From: a virus | Virus record (IMG/VR): IMGVR_UViG_3300007276_000097 | Coordinates: 1 to 42,028 of that record | Length of the DNA stretch: 42,028 bases | Strand: one strand, 5' to 3' | Shown: positions 4,399 to 27,441 of the stretch, piece after piece | Position numbering within the stretch: position 1 is the stretch's first letter | Layout: every line of letters starts with the position of its first letter | Notes under the pieces: generated by a model | The model's database searches: none | Told to the model about the DNA's origin: nothing | What the model saw: the letters and a program-made list of their open reading frames with translations, nothing else | Position numbers and translations under genes: made by a program

Positions 4399-5066
4399 TC
4401 TTCAAACCTCTTTGTCTTTGCGCCATGCGCTTCAATTACGATGTGAGACTTACGTCCCTGTGATGTGCCGTTGCACGCTCCGCACTCCATGCATGTCAGC
4501 TTCTTACCTCCTTCCTCGCTAGCAGGACATATGACTTCGTCACGTCGTGACTTAGTTCCTAAGCGGAACGTGCGCCATCCTCTGTCTCTTGCTTCTAAGG
4601 CTTCGGCTTCAGTGTCAACACTGGCCATGCAGTAGTGCTTGTGTAGGGGGTCACAGGTCTTCCACTGATGTGTATAACCTGTGACCATCGAAGCCTGGAA
4701 GCCAATGGCATCCCAGACCTCGAAAGGAACCGCAGCGGGGTCTCCATATGCACCAAACCTCACTGGTTTCCCAGCAAAGCTGTCTGAGCTGAATAATGGA
4801 TATCCGCCGCGCTTCCACGACTCCCAGATAGACCGAGGTCCCTGGAAGGTCGTTACATAGCACCACTTACCTCTCGCTGGGCAATCCCCGCAGACTGCTG
4901 CATCATTGCCGCTCTTGACCGCAGTATGTGGTGCTTCGTTTTGGGCCAGGATCCAAGTCTGAATCATCGGCCCAGTTTTGCGATTGGTCGAGGGGGTTAC
5001 CATTCCTGTCGCAATCGCTACTATCGGGTCGCCGTTTAGCAACGACGGTCCTTCGTAAATAATCAT
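4365..5066 (-). CDS. Conserved cysteine-rich phage protein of unknown function (DUF7227-like)
   Basis: The product has two cysteine clusters, CGDCPARGKWCY near residue 60 and CPASEEGGKKLTCMECGAC near 190-210. Between them are the family signatures PVRFGAYGDPAAVP, TGYTHQWKTCDPL and MASVDTEAEA-RGWRTFR. I know this arrangement from a family found across many phages; the name DUF7227 is from memory. The cysteines could bind zinc or an Fe-S cluster, but no canonical radical-SAM CxxxCxxC is present. GGAG lies six bases before the ATG. A terminator hairpin sits just upstream of the ribosome site, so the gene needs readthrough or its own promoter. Confidence 0.75.
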   Translation of the reverse strand: MIIYEGPSLLNGDPIVAIATGMVTPSTNRKTGPMIQTWILAQNEAPHTAVKSGNDAAVCGDCPARGKWCYVTTFQGPRSIWESWKRGGYPLFSSDSFAGKPVRFGAYGDPAAVPFEVWDAIGFQASMVTGYTHQWKTCDPLHKHYCMASVDTEAEALEARDRGWRTFRLGTKSRRDEVICPASEEGGKKLTCMECGACNGTSQGRKSHIVIEAHGAKTKRFEEWISSQPESIT

Positions 5067-20865: not shown

Positions 20866-21079
20866 GGTCCTGTAAATTTGGGGACCTGGTCCAGCTGAGG
20901 TCCATGAGTTGCGCGGAGCTAAGTAACTGAGTACTAAGTAAAAAATGCACTTAGGTCCTTAAGGTCCTCTTTTTTTATATATAGAGAGGTATAAAAATAG
21001 ATATAGTACACAGAGGGGGTATATACATATGTTTCCAGAGCGTAATACCAAAAAATAAAAATGGACCAAAAAGTGGACC
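20866..21079. repeat. Cluster of eight GGWCC motifs (GGTCC/GGACC)
   Basis: GGTCC or its complement GGACC occurs at 20866, 20882, 20888, 20899, 20954, 20963, 21063 and 21075. Three copies share a wider form close to CTWAGGTCCT (20863, 20952 and 20961). By chance fewer than one would be expected in this length. The repeats flank a strongly AT-rich stretch. The layout is that of iterons around an unwinding region. Confidence 0.7.
20919..20931. repeat. Motif CTWAGTAACTGAG, copy 1
   Basis: CTAAGTAACTGAG here differs at one base from CTTAGTAACTGAG at 25807-25819 in the divergent control region. ACTAAGT follows at 20933. The shared motif suggests one protein binding both control regions. Confidence 0.5.
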
Positions 21080-22065: not shown

Positions 22066-22332
22066 TTAACGAGCCTGTCTATCTCGCTGTGCATTCCTTT
22101 TACAAGATCTACACGGTTGATAACACTGTGGGAACGAACAACCCCGACCATGAGCTGCTCTGTGTATGCCTGTTAAATACTGAACGGCAAAGCCACTATC
22201 GAACTCATCGGATTCTTCTTGTAACAGAATCTCCAGTGGGTCTGGATATGTGCCCACTGTTAACTCTACCTCGATCCAGAGGGTCGCTTTCATCGCCTCT
22301 GATGAACTGTCTAACGACAGGAATATAGCCAT
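22066..22332 (-). CDS. Unknown protein with cysteine-rich tail (88 aa)
   Basis: The product begins MAIFLSLDSSSEAMKATLW and has alternating strands (TLWIEVELTVGTYP), an acidic helix (DPLEILLQEESDEFD) and a C-terminal stretch with four cysteines (GCSFPQCYQPCRSC), which could bind zinc. GGAG lies seven bases before the ATG. No family is recognised. It sits between the signal-peptide protein and the last gene of the block. Confidence 0.6.
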   Translation of the reverse strand: MAIFLSLDSSSEAMKATLWIEVELTVGTYPDPLEILLQEESDEFDSGFAVQYLTGIHRAAHGRGCSFPQCYQPCRSCKRNAQRDRQAR

Positions 22333-22362: not shown

Positions 22363-22725
22363 TCACACAACCTCAACAACAACCGGAGCTTGCGAGGTTG
22401 CCTGCGATACAGGTTCATGCATGTGAAGGGACTGAGCATCGCGATAGACCTCATCGCACTCATCGACTGCCTGCTTTAGCAGTGCAGGCGGGAGCTCGTC
22501 CTCGTCTTCGCTCTTCGTTAGGTACTCGAAGTACCTTATGACTATATCCGAGCGCAACGAGAACATTGCTTTCCATAGTATGAGCTTCTCCTCCTCGCCC
22601 GCCATGATGTACGCACCCGCGCACATCTCTGGGAGCTCGTCTATCTTCATTACTCCGAGTTCCATCTCCTCGGCTCCAGCTAGCGTGAACCAGCTCATTA
22701 GTAAAAACAGCAGCAGTGCTTTCAT
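22363..22725 (-). CDS. Secreted or periplasmic protein with signal peptide
   Basis: MKALLLFLLMSWFTLAGAEE is a clear Sec-type signal peptide with a Lys, a hydrophobic core and an AGA cleavage site. The mature part has two cysteines (MCAGA and ECDE) that may form a disulfide, helices, and a tail of Val/Glu/Pro (SQAPVVVEVV). The tail codons contain one of the three copies of the conserved hairpin. Phage proteins exported to the periplasm are often superinfection exclusion or lysis-related factors, but function here is unknown. GAGGAG lies eight bases before the ATG. Confidence 0.75.
   Translation of the reverse strand: MKALLLFLLMSWFTLAGAEEMELGVMKIDELPEMCAGAYIMAGEEEKLILWKAMFSLRSDIVIRYFEYLTKSEDEDELPPALLKQAVDECDEVYRDAQSLHMHEPVSQATSQAPVVVEVV
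22380..22400 (-). ncRNA. Conserved hairpin, copy 1
   Basis: On the plus strand CAACC (22380-22384), an 11-nt loop GGAGCTTGCGA, and GGTTG (22396-22400). On the minus-strand RNA the loop is TCGCAAGCTCC. It lies inside the last codons of the signal-peptide gene. The stem differs from the two other copies in compensatory ways. It is a candidate structured RNA element, not a proven RNA. Confidence 0.55.
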
Positions 22726-22764
22726 CTTGCAATCTCCTCGTAAGGTATTCAGTCCAGAAGTCGC

Positions 22765-23310
22765 TCATGCTCCTTCCTCTTCGAAGCTCCAATCACATGG
22801 AGCCTGTAAACACATCTTTAGGTATAAGCTGAACCCAACATCCCAATTGTCCTGAAACATATTGAAGATGAGGATCCCGTGGTGTTGCGCGATACGCAAC
22901 GCTTGCCCAGTGCCACCAGTTACTTCGCCATTGGGAGTCCAGCACAGCACAAAGTCTACGGGAGAATTGAGCTCCCAACCGAGTACCTGATGGCAGTTGC
23001 GCGCATGGAACTTTCTCGCCGCGTTACTGCAGCGCTCCCATGCAGGGTGATAAACCTGAGCCATATCATATGCGCGTGGAGTAGCGCCCCAGTAAGGAGA
23101 ATCGTTGTCGTTGAATCTCGCCCATGGCAGGAAGATCTCCTTGTGTTTGGGATCGGATACTCCTCGCTCAAACGCAGCGTCAGCACCTTTGGCACCTCCA
23201 CTGCGCAGGGTGTACCCCACATGCTCGAGGTTGGTGGCTACGTTAGTCATCTCACGTAGAATGTGACCGGGTGTGGCTCGGCTCCCGATGCCGGCATAGG
23301 TAAAGCTCAT
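22765..23310 (-). CDS. SLOG-domain protein (DprA/TPALS-like)
   Basis: YAGIGSRATPGHIL at the start, LRSGGAKGADAAFERG (SGGAKGAD at 37-44), a VDFVLCWTPNGEVTGGTGQALRIA segment and a final GILIFNM strand give a Rossmann-like SLOG domain of the DprA/LOG type. SLOG domains bind nucleotide-derived ligands or nucleotides. In phages, members are scattered and unassigned. Their presence in several anti-phage systems that sense nucleotide signals makes a ligand-binding or anti-defence role possible. GGAGG lies seven bases before the ATG. The full domain is present, so it is probably functional. Confidence 0.82.
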   Translation of the reverse strand: MSFTYAGIGSRATPGHILREMTNVATNLEHVGYTLRSGGAKGADAAFERGVSDPKHKEIFLPWARFNDNDSPYWGATPRAYDMAQVYHPAWERCSNAARKFHARNCHQVLGWELNSPVDFVLCWTPNGEVTGGTGQALRIAQHHGILIFNMFQDNWDVGFSLYLKMCLQAPCDWSFEEEGA

Positions 23311-23322
23311 GATTGCGCCTCC

Positions 23323-23514
23323 TTAATCTAAATCAGTTGGACTGCAAGCCGAATAGGAACTGACAACAGTGTCGAATTGTCTTGCTGTTTGTTCTGCATC
23401 GGCTCTGGTTTTGTGTCGCGATGCCATCCACCAGTCTTTTGTAAAGCCGTTGGTGGTTTTGTATGCACCTGCCAGTTCGTTGCGGATAATGTAAAAAGGA
23501 TCATTGGTTTTCAT
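23323..23514 (-). CDS. Unknown small protein (63 aa)
   Basis: The start MKTNDPFYIIRNELAGAYKT at 23514 is chosen because GGAGAG lies five bases upstream; a longer frame to 23628 lacks a site and overlaps the next gene. The rest is ASRHKTRADAEQTARQFDTV and a short polar tail. The sequence resembles small phage proteins that contain an N-terminal strand, a basic loop and a helix. Family not recognised. It overlaps the upstream gene as ATGA. Confidence 0.65.
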   Translation of the reverse strand: MKTNDPFYIIRNELAGAYKTTNGFTKDWWMASRHKTRADAEQTARQFDTVVSSYSACSPTDLD

Positions 23515-23681
23515 GATTGCTCTCCGCAAAGACGGGTTCCGAGTGGTGTTTGCTCGAACCACATTATATAAACCTGCTGCTGATGCCCGATGCTCAAAGA
23601 TTGGTAGATCTCGAGGGGCATTGCACACCAGTCAAGAAGTGCGTCGCGCAGGTGAGAAGGTAAAACGTAACTGATGCTCAT
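23511..23681 (-). CDS. Unknown very small protein (56 aa)
   Basis: This gene is short but well supported: GAGGAG five bases before the ATG at 23681, a complete frame to a TGA that overlaps the next start as ATGA, and a stop only two bases upstream of the preceding gene end. It reads MSISYVLPSHLRDALLDWCA and later QQQVYIMWFEQTPLG. No family is recognised. The tight fit between neighbours fills a 170-base gap exactly. Confidence 0.75.
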   Translation of the reverse strand: MSISYVLPSHLRDALLDWCAMPLEIYQSLSIGHQQQVYIMWFEQTPLGTRLCGEQS

Positions 23682-23683
23682 GA

Positions 23684-24259
23684 TTACTCCTCATCGATTG
23701 GGTAAGGGAACCCGTTTGAATACATCCAGTTGTTCTCAATGCAATCACGGACTTCAAAGCTCTTCGAAGCCAGTGCTACTTCCGCCGCCTCAAGGTTGCC
23801 GAAATACTCAGACTCTCGTGAGTAGGGTTCGATGAAACCAAACTCATCGTTCCAGCAGACGCGACCTATGTACCAGCCTGCAGCAGATTGCAAACACTGC
23901 AAATCACTAACAGGGATATCATCGAAGGTCATCGGAAATTGCACACCATCTTTCTCAAACACGTCCATATCTTTCTCCAGTTGATTACACTCAAGCCCAA
24001 CAACACCCGGAGCTTGCGAGGGTGCTTCGGGTTTTGCAGGTCTGACGGTGCCCCAAGGTTCACCTGAGAACATATACTTACTCCACGCGCTGTGGATTTC
24101 TTGGCCACCATCCACAGTCTTAGCCAGTGCTTGGAGCTTTTTGCTCGCCTCTTCGCCTGCACGCCACACACGGTGGTCGTCAGAGAATGCGTAGTACCAG
24201 TCGTGCCGTTCGCACATGGTAAAAAAGGTGACAGGGTCTACATTCGTTACGTTGCTCAT
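23684..24259 (-). CDS. Unknown protein (191 aa)
   Basis: The product starts MSNVTNVDPVTFFTMCERHD and has aromatic residues throughout (DWYYAFSDDHRVW, GWYIGRVCWNDEFGFIEP). A linker in the middle (KPEAPSQAPGVVGLEC) carries the second copy of the conserved hairpin. Similar WYYAFSDDHRVW starts occur in phage proteins of unknown role. AGGAA lies six bases before the ATG, which overlaps the upstream stop. The linker divides two domains of about 80 residues. Confidence 0.65.
   Translation of the reverse strand: MSNVTNVDPVTFFTMCERHDWYYAFSDDHRVWRAGEEASKKLQALAKTVDGGQEIHSAWSKYMFSGEPWGTVRPAKPEAPSQAPGVVGLECNQLEKDMDVFEKDGVQFPMTFDDIPVSDLQCLQSAAGWYIGRVCWNDEFGFIEPYSRESEYFGNLEAAEVALASKSFEVRDCIENNWMYSNGFPYPIDEE
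24004..24024 (-). ncRNA. Conserved hairpin, copy 2 (compensated stem)
   Basis: On the plus strand CACCC (24004-24008), the loop GGAGCTTGCGA, and GGGTG (24020-24024). Compared with copy 1 the third base pair has changed on both sides (A to C and T to G), which keeps the stem. It lies in the coding region of the gene at 23684-24259, in the linker between two domains. Confidence 0.55.
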
Positions 24260-24498
24260 GATTCGTTCCTCGTCTGCGTGAGTTCGTTGTGCAGTTCTTG
24301 TTGCGCTTGTGCTTCTTCGTCCATGGCATCGATGAGCTGCTGCTCAACAGTGCGGTTATTGTCAGGCCAATCGTCAGGCCGACGGCTGTCCCAATACCTG
24401 TGCTTCGCTTCGGCTGCCAGCATGCCCGTTATGAGCACAAGGTGCCCGGTGTACACGATGTTCAGTGCTGTGATCGCTGCTCTCATAATGATGTTCAT
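24256..24498 (-). CDS. Small single-span membrane protein (80 aa)
   Basis: Residues 5-30 (AAITALNIVYTGHLVLITGM) form a membrane span, followed by an acidic and polar cytoplasmic tail (PDDWPDNNRTVEQQL and EEAQAQQELHNELTQ). AAGGAG lies six bases before the ATG. It could be a small membrane protein that blocks entry or affects lysis, but no family is recognised. It overlaps the next gene by four bases. Confidence 0.7.
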   Translation of the reverse strand: MNIIMRAAITALNIVYTGHLVLITGMLAAEAKHRYWDSRRPDDWPDNNRTVEQQLIDAMDEEAQAQQELHNELTQTRNES

Positions 24499-24516
24499 AA
24501 CTTTCTCCTTAGGTGC

Positions 24517-24828
24517 CTAGTAATCGGAAGTGCCGCATTTCACGCAGACGCCGTTGACATGCCATGTCTCGCCTTCGTGTGGGTACGGACAGCATGTGTC
24601 GCAAGTCTCCATTTCCGCATAGCGGAATGCAGGGTTGCAATGCACGCAGTCCTCGGGCAGCAAGCAGTGGTCACACTGCCATTCGGTGCCGAGATGGCGT
24701 TCGTCCATGACCGTGCTTGCCTGTGTGACGCGGCACTGTGTGTCACGGTTGAGAACGACCTCGATGATGGGACGAGCCATCTCTTCGGTGCGCTCACCAG
24801 TTGCAAAGTTGTAGATTGCGTAACGCAT
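24517..24828 (-). CDS. Small multi-zinc-finger protein (103 aa)
   Basis: The start at 24828 (MRYAIYNFATGERT) is chosen because AAGGAG lies six bases upstream. The C-terminal half has pairs CDHC, CVHC, CDTCC and CVKC, eight or more cysteines that make two zinc ribbons. The first part is a beta-helix-beta module (IIEVVLNRDTQCRV). The much longer frame to 25314 is antisense-like noise upstream. The presence of a strong ribosome site and many cysteines supports a real gene; function unknown. Confidence 0.7.
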   Translation of the reverse strand: MRYAIYNFATGERTEEMARPIIEVVLNRDTQCRVTQASTVMDERHLGTEWQCDHCLLPEDCVHCNPAFRYAEMETCDTCCPYPHEGETWHVNGVCVKCGTSDY

Positions 24829-25121
24829 TACTTGCTCCTTACCCAGACGACGCTGGGGAGTATGTGGCCGCGACGACGTATCATCTTCGGCTTGCTGGTA
24901 CCTGCTACTGCACGTCCGCCGCGCAGGAAGAACGATATCGCCATGCCTCCGATAACGCCGGTCATCATGCCGGCATAAGAGCCGGAGAACATGAAGACCA
25001 GCAGCCCGGTGCAGGCGATATCTACGATAGGCGCGAAGTTGAACACCTTGCGTAGTCCGAAGTAGGAAAGAATCCAAATGACTGTCGCTGCTGCGATCAT
25101 GCCTTGTGTGATCATGTCCAT
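24828..25121 (-). CDS. Small membrane protein (97 aa)
   Basis: Two or three membrane helices are visible: residues 4-24 (GMIAAATVIWILSYFG), 30-50 (APIVDIACTGLLVFMFSG) and 50-66 (AGMMTGVIGGMAISFFL), followed by a basic tail (KPKMIRRRG). GAGGAG lies eight bases before the ATG, and the stop overlaps the next start. The size and topology are like a small holin or an ion-channel-like phage membrane protein, but neither is supported by neighbours. The frame is continuous. Confidence 0.7.
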   Translation of the reverse strand: MDMITQGMIAAATVIWILSYFGLRKVFNFAPIVDIACTGLLVFMFSGSYAGMMTGVIGGMAISFFLRGGRAVAGTSKPKMIRRRGHILPSVVWVRSK

Positions 25122-25147
25122 GGTTGTGTCTCCTCGTGAGGGTTGGT

Positions 25148-25262
25148 TTATGCGGTGAGTTTGCCAGCTGAGTGCTGGTCGTAAGAAAGATTGCGACGGC
25201 GATCGATGTCAGAGGTGACACCTTTGCCTTTGCAACGGTAGCAAGACCCGCGTGAAACAGGC
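25148..25262 (-). pseudogene. Out-of-frame second half of the zinc finger
   Basis: Read in the next phase, this stretch encodes PVSRGSCYRCKGKGVTSD and then DRRRNLSYDQHSAGKLTA to a TAA at 25148-25150. CYRCKGKG is the second CxxCxGxG of a DnaJ zinc finger. It would continue the 25209-25640 protein if one base were skipped. It fills the gap before the membrane protein gene, which supports a single original gene. Confidence 0.65.
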
Positions 25263-25640
25263 TTGTCGTTCGATGCGTACGATGTACAGGCCGGTGCCTG
25301 CGCAGCGTCCACATGTGTGGGTACCAGCTACGCTAGTGTCGGTGTCAAACACCGTGGCTTCGGCCTTCTCGGCGGCGCGCTGTGAGGCAGGCTTGCGTGC
25401 GGGTACTGAGGTTTCAGCCATTGCGAACTGGCTTACCTTCAGGTACCACTTGCCGTTGGTATCGCCGCGAGCTACGTCGAACGCACACAGGGTAGGGGCG
25501 AACGCTGCAATCAGGCGCTGCATGAGCGCTTCGCTGATCTTACCGTTGGTACGGGTGAGCCCACCAGCTACAGACGGTGCGTCTATGCGGAAGTACGTGT
25601 CGAGGCCATCTACTGCTACCTTCGTGATTCGTGCTGTCAT
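25209..25640 (-). CDS. DnaJ-type zinc-finger protein, truncated by a frameshift
   Basis: The start at 25640 has AGGAG six bases upstream and is the first gene of the accessory block. Residues 1-105 are an unknown domain. THTCGRCAGTG (Cys110, Cys113) is the first half of a DnaJ-like CxxCxGxG zinc finger. The frame then ends in 25 residues of unrelated sequence, while the second half (GSCYRCKGKG) follows in another phase. One extra base near 25255-25265 would explain it. It is either a sequencing or assembly indel, a broken gene, or a programmed +1 shift. Confidence 0.7.
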   Translation of the reverse strand: MTARITKVAVDGLDTYFRIDAPSVAGGLTRTNGKISEALMQRLIAAFAPTLCAFDVARGDTNGKWYLKVSQFAMAETSVPARKPASQRAAEKAEATVFDTDTSVAGTHTCGRCAGTGLYIVRIERQACFTRVLLPLQRQRCHL

Positions 25641-25681
25641 GTCGATCTCCTGATCTTGGATTAAAAACACCCCGCCTTACC

Positions 25682-25706
25682 AACAACCGTAGCTTGCGAG
25701 GTTGTT
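25682..25706 (-). ncRNA. Conserved hairpin, copy 3, in the operon leader
   Basis: On the plus strand AACAACC (25682-25688), the loop GTAGCTTGCGA with one change from the other copies, and GGTTGTT (25700-25706), a perfect 7-bp stem. Unlike the others it is non-coding. It lies 42 bases upstream of the first gene of the accessory block, so it would be in the leader of that transcript. Confidence 0.6.
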
Positions 25707-25797
25707 TGCGACTACGATTGAAATACGTCATCGCTAAAACCGTGCTTTTTCCTGTCACCCCTATGCCACTAAGCTACGTAGTACCTAGTACTGGGAG

Positions 25798-25812
25798 ACT
25801 AAGTGACTTAGT
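25798..25812. promoter_or_regulatory. Perfect 15-bp dyad, candidate operator
   Basis: ACTAAGT, one central G, then ACTTAGT make a perfect inverted repeat. The flanking AGTAACTGAG also occurs at 20922-20931 in the other control region. GTGACTTAGTA recurs within the early plus-strand gene at 26488, and ACTTAGTAAC in the gene at 26055. Confidence 0.55.
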
Positions 25813-25819
25813 AACTGAG
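25807..25819. repeat. Motif CTWAGTAACTGAG, copy 2
   Basis: CTTAGTAACTGAG differs in one base from the copy at 20919-20931. The motif overlaps the right arm of the dyad. Confidence 0.5.
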
Positions 25820-26054: not shown

Positions 26055-26330
26055 ATGAGATCCATTCTTGACTTGCCACCAGGTATCGAGCCACTTAGTA
26101 ACCAAGTCCCTAAGGGATGTCGCGTGAGGATTACGGTCGATGAACCTGGATTCAGTGATGCTCGAGTAATGCTGAAGTTCCCCAGTGGAGAAGTCGAGTC
26201 TGTTGTTGTTGGCCCAGGTGGATCCTATGAGTTTATACTCAGGTCTCACATCGCCAACCAGGTAATTATCGAGGGCCTGCTACGTGACGGAGATCCCCAA
26301 GATCCCGACATGGAGGGAGGGGCGTGGTGA
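26055..26330 (+). CDS. Unknown small protein, first gene of the plus-strand arm
   Basis: The ATG at 26055 has AGGAG six bases upstream, so the longer frame from 25992 is not used. The 91-residue product starts MRSILDLPPGIEPLSNQVP and looks all-beta (CRVRITVDEPG, ARVMLKFPSGEVESVVV, SYEFILRS), like a small beta-sandwich. The end is acidic (RDGDPQDPDME). No family is recognised. As the first gene it may be expressed early or as a cofactor for the late operon. Confidence 0.65.
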   Translation: MRSILDLPPGIEPLSNQVPKGCRVRITVDEPGFSDARVMLKFPSGEVESVVVGPGGSYEFILRSHIANQVIIEGLLRDGDPQDPDMEGGAW

Positions 26331-26500: not shown

Positions 26501-26829
26501 TTATGAATGTCATGGACGAAGCAACTTGTGACTTAGTACGAAGTTGCGGAGTACTTAGTTTTGCAGACGAAAACATTGAGGTGTACCGTTTGGTGGACGG
26601 CACTTTATGCTTCTTACCACCTACTGTTCATAACACCGACGAAGCGGCCGTTCACGCTGCAGTGGTGGAAGCGGGCTTTGCAACTGAGGAACTTAGATCT
26701 TGCGTCAAAGAGCTGTATGAGTGCTTGTATGTGCGCATGCTTCAAGAGCCGGCGTCATGCTCATGGTTTACCGATAAAGAGTGGGAAGCCTGCAAGTCTG
26801 CGAAACATCTCCTTGGGCTCGACCCCTAA
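26488..26829 (+). CDS. Unknown protein (113 aa)
   Basis: The ATG at 26488 lies inside the end of the preceding gene with AAGG seven or eight bases upstream. The product is acidic with a helical second half (AAVHAAVVEAGFATEELR, then ELYECLYVRML) and five cysteines spread through it. It includes GVLSFADENIEVYRL and a WFTDKEWEACKSAKHLL end. No family is recognised. It contains two copies of the ACTTAGT motif found in the control regions. Confidence 0.6.
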   Translation: MEDLIMNVMDEATCDLVRSCGVLSFADENIEVYRLVDGTLCFLPPTVHNTDEAAVHAAVVEAGFATEELRSCVKELYECLYVRMLQEPASCSWFTDKEWEACKSAKHLLGLDP

Positions 26830-26832
26830 TCT

Positions 26833-27441
26833 GTGCGTCCCTATCCACAGCTTACTTGTGTAAGGTGCGATGAGACAAAATCTGCGCTTCATTTTCCAAA
26901 GCGCGCAGGCTCGACGTACGCAAAGTATTTATCCCACGACCCCAGGCGTTATGACCCGGTATGCAAATGGTGTAGGAAGCCGCGCAAACCAGGACAAGCC
27001 AGGGAGGATGTGCCGCGCCCGAAAGTAAAGCAGAAACAGAAAGGCGGCAAAGCGCGCATGACGGGGGACTTGAACCCTAGAAAACGAAAAAAGGAACGGC
27101 TCAGTGCAGGCGAATACAAAGCGAGAACGAGGAGTAAGACACGTGTTAAGTCTATGCAGTACCTATCTAAAAAAGGGTGCGAAGAATGTGGGGAACGTGA
27201 TCCACGAGTTTTGGAGTACGACCATAAAGACACAAGCGAGAAAAACGGCACTATCAGTCGCCTCATTATTGATGGGTATGGCTGGTCGTCTAGACGCCTT
27301 CGGACAGAGATCCGAAAATGTAGAATCCTCTGCGCAAACTGCCACCGTAAACATACCATCAAGCAGCAAGGATACTACGCCCAAGAGGAAGTTCAGTGGG
27401 AGCTCAGAATTATCGCGGGACGGTATAAATTTGACCTATAA
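26833..27441 (+). CDS. HNH endonuclease with N-terminal zinc finger
   Basis: The C-terminal part has the HNH pattern: GCEECGERDP (Cys116, Cys119), VLEYDHKD (His131), and ILCANCHRKHT (Cys167, Cys170, His171, His174). The first part has CVRCDETKSALHF and VCKWCRKP (Cys9, 12, 44, 47), a zinc finger, followed by a strongly basic linker. HNH proteins encoded beside terminases take part in packaging cleavage in some phages such as HK97; here two genes separate it from the small terminase. A free homing role is also possible. The GTG start lacks a clear ribosome site, so it may be coupled to the gene ending at 26829. Confidence 0.82.
   Translation: MRPYPQLTCVRCDETKSALHFPKRAGSTYAKYLSHDPRRYDPVCKWCRKPRKPGQAREDVPRPKVKQKQKGGKARMTGDLNPRKRKKERLSAGEYKARTRSKTRVKSMQYLSKKGCEECGERDPRVLEYDHKDTSEKNGTISRLIIDGYGWSSRRLRTEIRKCRILCANCHRKHTIKQQGYYAQEEVQWELRIIAGRYKFDL

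Follow-up and report, generated by a model that had tools for sequence, protein, structure and literature searches.

Three copies of a start-associated element, a candidate RNA stem-loop, in one operon of a distant relative of phage KPP25

In this study we describe an element of about 44 nt with sharp edges that is present in the leftward operon of a phage in three same-strand copies (22364-22407, 23988-24031 and 25668-25711). We interpret the copies as one start-associated regulatory element that most likely acts in the mRNA as a protein-bound leader or intercistronic stem-loop, a reading to which we assign a probability of about 0.42. The copies occur far above chance, share about 44 nt of homology between unrelated flanks, conserve their pairing and are placed before three gene starts. 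From these observations we infer folding in RNA, binding by a factor and an effect of that binding.

The window, i.e. the whole analyzed stretch of 42,028 nt, represents a viral fragment of 42 kb. A further contig of 50.4 kb is 99.99% identical across the overlap and adds the other 26 kb, which gives a whole phage genome of about 68 kb. Judged by its terminase, portal, primase, helicase and polymerase, the phage is distantly related to KPP25 of Pseudomonas and phiA008 of Aeromonas. The leftward operon spans 3-25.7 kb of the window, and from 26 kb on virion genes run rightward. Searches with five phage proteins as queries recovered near-identical contigs as well as distant relatives. One of these contigs, L004, is 99.97% identical and contains all three copies of the element; the further contigs of the same phage recovered by this protein-guided search end before the element region. 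In addition, the motif ACTWAGTNAC was observed in the window (25768-25815, 26090-26107, 20918-20942 and 4534-4559; 41 matches with at most one mismatch vs 14.5 expected). In the intergenic region between the divergent genes its matches are grouped, as GACTAAGTGACTTAGTAACTGAG, possibly as an operator or promoter array.

All copies are read from the minus strand. In copy 1 the stem is formed by 22402-22396 (GGCAACC) and 22384-22378 (GGTTGTT) and encloses the loop 22395-22385 (TCGCAAGCTCC), followed by 14 nt of conserved spacing down to 22364. The stem of copy 2 comprises 24026-24020 (AGCACCC) and 24008-24002 (GGGTGTT) with the loop at 24019-24009. Copy 3 is located in the non-coding leader of the first gene and has its stem at 25706-25700 (AACAACC) and 25688-25682 (GGTTGTT) and its loop at 25699-25689 (TCGCAAGCTAC). 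Successive copies are spaced by 1624 and 1680 nt. An earlier note on this DNA had reported three hairpins, and we reproduced its coordinates, loop, stems and spacings as well as the change on both sides of the stem in copy 2. Its statement that all copies are sense to the same transcript also held, with 3/3 on one strand of the leftward operon. The loop sequence given there was right, but it was that of the plus strand; as the operon is on the minus strand, the RNA loop is the reverse complement UCGCAAGCUMC. Similarly, the pairing was kept as claimed, but a stem of 5 bp in copies 1 and 2 was too short, since on the mRNA strand all copies form 7 bp when G.U pairs are counted.

The core CCNNAGCTTGCGAGG matched exactly three times in the window and on one strand only, and the reversed control pattern gave 0 matches. 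A fourth copy was found neither in the window nor in the rest of the genome taken from the 50.4-kb contig. Families of 25-mers with at least three dispersed copies (up to 4 mismatches) arose in none of 60 order-2 Markov simulations; two-copy families arose in 19 of 60. Identity between the copies amounted to 80-100% across most of the 25-nt stem-loop and to 60-70% in the next 10-14 nt. Beyond the hairpin it fell to background within about 5 nt on the upstream side and 15 nt on the downstream side, and the flanks are unrelated. The 14 nt located 3' of the hairpin aligned without gaps and ended with GTG in 3/3 copies.

The distance from the 3' base of the hairpin to the next ATG is 45 nt in copy 1 (22332), 33 nt in copy 2 (23968) and 41 nt in copy 3 (25640). 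Hairpin-sized slots 30-50 nt upstream of leftward starts make up 3.6% of the operon, so that 3/3 by chance would have a probability of about 5e-5; this estimate was made from mechanically listed starts, and 23968 and 25640, absent from that list, rest on the match to p37 of phage PaP2 and on the visible Shine-Dalgarno sequence (SD) and ATG. The earlier note had placed two copies in coding sequence and one in a leader. The leader position of copy 3 is correct, but the two coding copies sit at gene junctions and all three are start-associated. Copy 1 lies in the last codons (ATSQAPVVVEVV and stop) of an ORF at 22363-22725 (minus strand) that has no family match and whose only relative is found in the near-identical contig. 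The ORF downstream of it (22066-22332, minus strand) likewise has no family match. This downstream ORF has an odd-looking C-terminal tail and another frame appears more protein-like; L004 has the same sequence here, and there may be an overlapping gene or a further difference in frame. The first gene of the operon, located behind copy 3 (25148-25640, minus strand), differs from that of L004 by 2 nt at 25269-25270 (minus strand), which shifts its frame in the window. In L004 the protein is intact, 164 aa long and Cys-rich, and the difference may be genuine or may stem from the assembly.

Copy 2 encodes the linker of a two-domain ORF (23684-24259, minus strand) with matches to phrog_16661 in residues 6-77 and to phrog_15544 in residues 114-163. 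In Vibrio phage D486 the phrog_16661-like first part forms the end of its gene. The second part is the free-standing gene p37 in Pseudomonas phage PaP2, whose start aligns to MDVFEKDG, i.e. to the beginning of a putative original downstream gene (23684-23968, minus strand) with its own SD (GGAG) and the ATG at 23968. On the basis of these relatives we regard the ORF as two genes fused, with copy 2 at the seam. Since the two families are separate elsewhere and the SD and ATG are found 33 nt past the hairpin, copy 2 would also be an intergenic leader which is now read through, with a predicted downstream start.

In mRNA sense each copy can form a hairpin with a 7-bp stem and the 11-nt loop UCGCAAGCUMC, this asymmetric loop being the best conserved part of the element. 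The stems read GGCAACC/GGUUGUU in copy 1, AGCACCC/GGGUGUU in copy 2 and AACAACC/GGUUGUU in copy 3. One pair is altered on both sides (A-U to C-G in copy 2 compared with copies 1 and 3) and two pairs alternate between A-U and G.U. Accordingly, 21/21 stem cells are paired on the mRNA strand vs 18/21 on the opposite strand, where G.U becomes A.C. As the G.U pairs survive on the mRNA strand only, this strand is favoured. At the transition rates used, random substitution with an equal number of stem changes retained full pairing in 0.2-1.5% of trials; this simulation has few changes to work with and uses a structure picked from the same sequences it tests. In a pair-shuffle control of the 7-bp helix, which has little power with three rows, 164 of 500 shuffles reached the observed covariation. 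RNAalifold chose the same helix on the alignment and added a weaker outer helix past a conserved A.G mismatch, with 3/4 pairs formed per copy and one further double change (U-A to C-G). Taken together, these results argue modestly for pairing of the element in RNA.

In folds of longer transcripts the predicted probability of the hairpin was near zero because the 5' arm pairs with a downstream G-rich sequence. In copies 1 and 3 this competing hairpin is predicted to have the lowest energy of all folds. A UUUUU run comes right after it in copy 3, which gives it a terminator-like look not seen in copy 2. We rejected it as a conserved structure, as its register differs between the copies. Since the predicted folding of longer RNA disfavours the hairpin, a DNA site has to be considered as a serious rival. 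Here, a phage-specific promoter or dyad operator would stand before three genes that are each transcribed or controlled separately, which we consider somewhat unlikely. The nearest known kind of element is the start-associated inverted repeats of actinophages (ESAS), whose function is unproven, and by analogy the phage element is a variant of these. In cluster K mycobacteriophages the ESAS comprises about 46 nt with an inverted repeat and is found in one orientation upstream of several start codons. Its imperfect arms are 17 bp long and are linked to a 13-bp SAS (GGGATAGGAGCCC) at the ribosome-binding site, with about 7 copies per genome (PMC3203893, PMC11373665). Pope et al. reported that departures in the ESAS fail to support RNA pairing (PMC3203893), and putative SigA-like promoters within the ESAS were described later (PMC11373665). 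Like the ESAS, the phage element is repeated in one orientation and precedes an ATG by 33-45 nt in 3/3 copies. In contrast to the ESAS, it has 7-bp arms with a broken 4-bp outer extension, it keeps its pairing, its loop is the most conserved part and it occurs three times. Moreover, the sequences before the ATGs at 22332, 23968 and 25640 share no common 13-mer of the SAS type.

A DNA site would agree with the position, the single orientation, the length of about 44 bp and the inverted repeat with its 11-nt spacer, all of which are ESAS-like, and with the poor folding of the hairpin in its RNA context. However, no sigma-70-type -35/-10 pair was found at any copy and the total of the scan was at chance level. 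As DNA the dyad is imperfect, with 18/21 Watson-Crick cells, and its asymmetric centre is best conserved; such asymmetry would be expected of a loop that is bound rather than of an operator, which is symmetric. The early promoters of the N4 virion RNA polymerase are also hairpin-type sites, three in number (PMC4496689). The plus (template) strand of the element carries the heptamer CCGGAGC, one base off GCGGAGC, the heptamer that we deduced for N4 from its template positions -8 to -14 as published, and this 6/7 likeness holds in two copies. Unlike the N4 promoters (PMC4496689), the element has C at -8 rather than the required G, and in every copy a C.C mismatch disrupts the N4-type hairpin with a 3-nt loop. 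The N4 virion RNA polymerase itself had no sequence match in either phage contig by tblastn and phmmer with 3008 of about 3500 residues, and tblastn recovered N4 itself.

An alternative without any control function is that the copies are recombination seams. Direct repeats would bound two cassettes of 1.62 and 1.68 kb as footprints of gain, duplication or exchange. The location of the copies at gene junctions, the near-equal length of the cassettes and the gene fusion at copy 2 are in line with this, but the flanks have no homology, so that duplications must be tiny or old, yet the core is nearly unchanged. Besides, tyrosine integrase (PF00589) and serine resolvase (PF00239) were absent from both phage contigs with positive controls, and seams leave the kept pairing unexplained. 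We therefore regard this explanation as improbable.

Far less credible still is a Ser-Gln-Ala-Pro linker common to two proteins with the leader copy as a relic, since, although copies 1 and 2 share the reading frame (ATSQAPVVV and APSQAPGVV), both changes at the paired positions of copy 2 are non-synonymous (Thr to Pro, Val to Gly), the identity between the copies runs beyond these codons, and copy 3 lies outside any ORF in this frame with a TAG just upstream, which bears out the earlier remark that such a tract cannot account for the leader copy. With all copies start-associated and copy 2 at a fusion seam, the peptide would be a by-product, and a repeat at the protein level appears largely refuted by the sequence comparison.

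Inverted repeats before translation starts have also been described for Microbacterium phages of clusters EC and EG, where motifs are repeated 14-30 bp upstream of the starts within one operon; they differ in sequence from the phage element, and the EG spacer has 2 bp (PMC7302621). Similarities to antitermination sites were found as well. The put RNA of HK022 is a stem-loop RNA from an early operon whose copies share sequence, and putR is located inside the operon about 270 nt in (PMC9378689). However, each early operon has a single put, whose roughly 70 nt form two stem-loops (PMC9378689), in contrast to one main hairpin in three copies within one operon here. A second conserved stem-loop of the put type was not seen, RNAalifold giving one main conserved helix, and the element had no Rfam match above the gathering score. 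The lambda nut sites, at a junction or leader of an early operon, combine a boxA with a small boxB hairpin whose GNRA-like loop has 5 nt. The phage element shares with them the small hairpin and the location between genes or in a leader, and differs in its 11-nt loop. By eye no boxA was seen near the copies, no member of the NusG family was found in the phage, and N-like proteins are not recognisable by family search. These searches gave no support to the nut/put or processing role at which the earlier note had guessed; a nut/put-type antitermination role for the element is possible.

The earlier note had proposed a covariance model search for more copies in related phages. In 724 kb, comprising relatives, the rest of the phage and the window, the model found only the three window copies, so this expectation was not borne out, and 28 distantly related contigs, KPP25 and phiA008 yielded no copy; the best other match of the model had an E value of 0.69. 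The 28 relatives had been found through the primase (about 30% identity), and each contributed at most 10 kb of the operon next to it. At about 30-53% protein identity, the distance of the relatives is too large for the absence of the element to mean much. De novo scans of the relatives for dispersed hairpins sharing one loop among themselves revealed no comparable family of their own either. In one distant relative (L057, 3525-3733 and 17028-17821, plus strand) an unusually conserved, SAS-like ribosome-binding and start sequence, GAGGTGAAGCCGTGAGCACG, was observed at several starts. The KPP25 record contains three 49-nt tandem repeats (26618-26833; L043 12619-12834) in the large gap between ORF029 and ORF030, perhaps a promoter or origin region.

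In the viral collection the core pattern matched 18 loci, of which only L004 belongs to the same phage. The other 17 were judged to be chance matches since, by our estimate, roughly that number was expected. Flexible DNA patterns matched two contigs in the bacterial collection, which is within chance expectation. Among the viral matches with a long stem and the same loop, eight (L007, L010, L011, L013, L014, L015, L019 and L020, contigs mostly of 8-20 kb) represent a single conserved hairpin rich in GC, GCGCCGTCC-TCGCAAGCTGC-GGGCGGCGC, which we judged unrelated: its 11-nt loop is almost identical, but there is no synteny with the phage. So far the element thus appears to be confined to one phage, the sole other carrier being the 99.97% identical contig.

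An RNA stem-loop read at its near-invariant loop accounts best for the position, the orientation, the conservation of the loop and the kept pairing. In such a mechanism each copy, about 40 nt before a start codon, would adopt the 7-bp stem during transcription and present the invariant loop core UCGCAAGCU. The loop and the stem would be recognised by RNA polymerase itself or by a protein of the phage or the host, and this recognition would set the expression of the genes behind each copy, be it by processing or protection of the 5' end, by control of translation or by loading of an antiterminator. The RNA reading is weakened by covariation taken from three sequences, by the long folds that disfavour the hairpin, by the other phages in which the element is lacking and by the fact that no partner protein was identified. 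Moreover, ribosomes from upstream would traverse copy 2 and most or all of copy 1. Nevertheless, the pairing is kept despite amino-acid changes, and chance and protein coding are both disfavoured, in agreement with the earlier suggestion of a shared element. A bolder proposal, which we consider doubtful, is that the copies represent a new class of RNA leader repeated within a phage, with one protein-bound stem-loop reused before three operon genes to reload an antitermination, processing or translation factor per segment.

In several actinophage groups it is unsettled whether start-associated inverted repeats act as RNA or as DNA. In the phage described here the pairing is kept while the letters change and the loop is near-invariant, which makes the RNA alternative directly testable with few mutants. 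If the element is an RNA signal, a phage could by this simple means place the segments of one operon under the control of a single factor.
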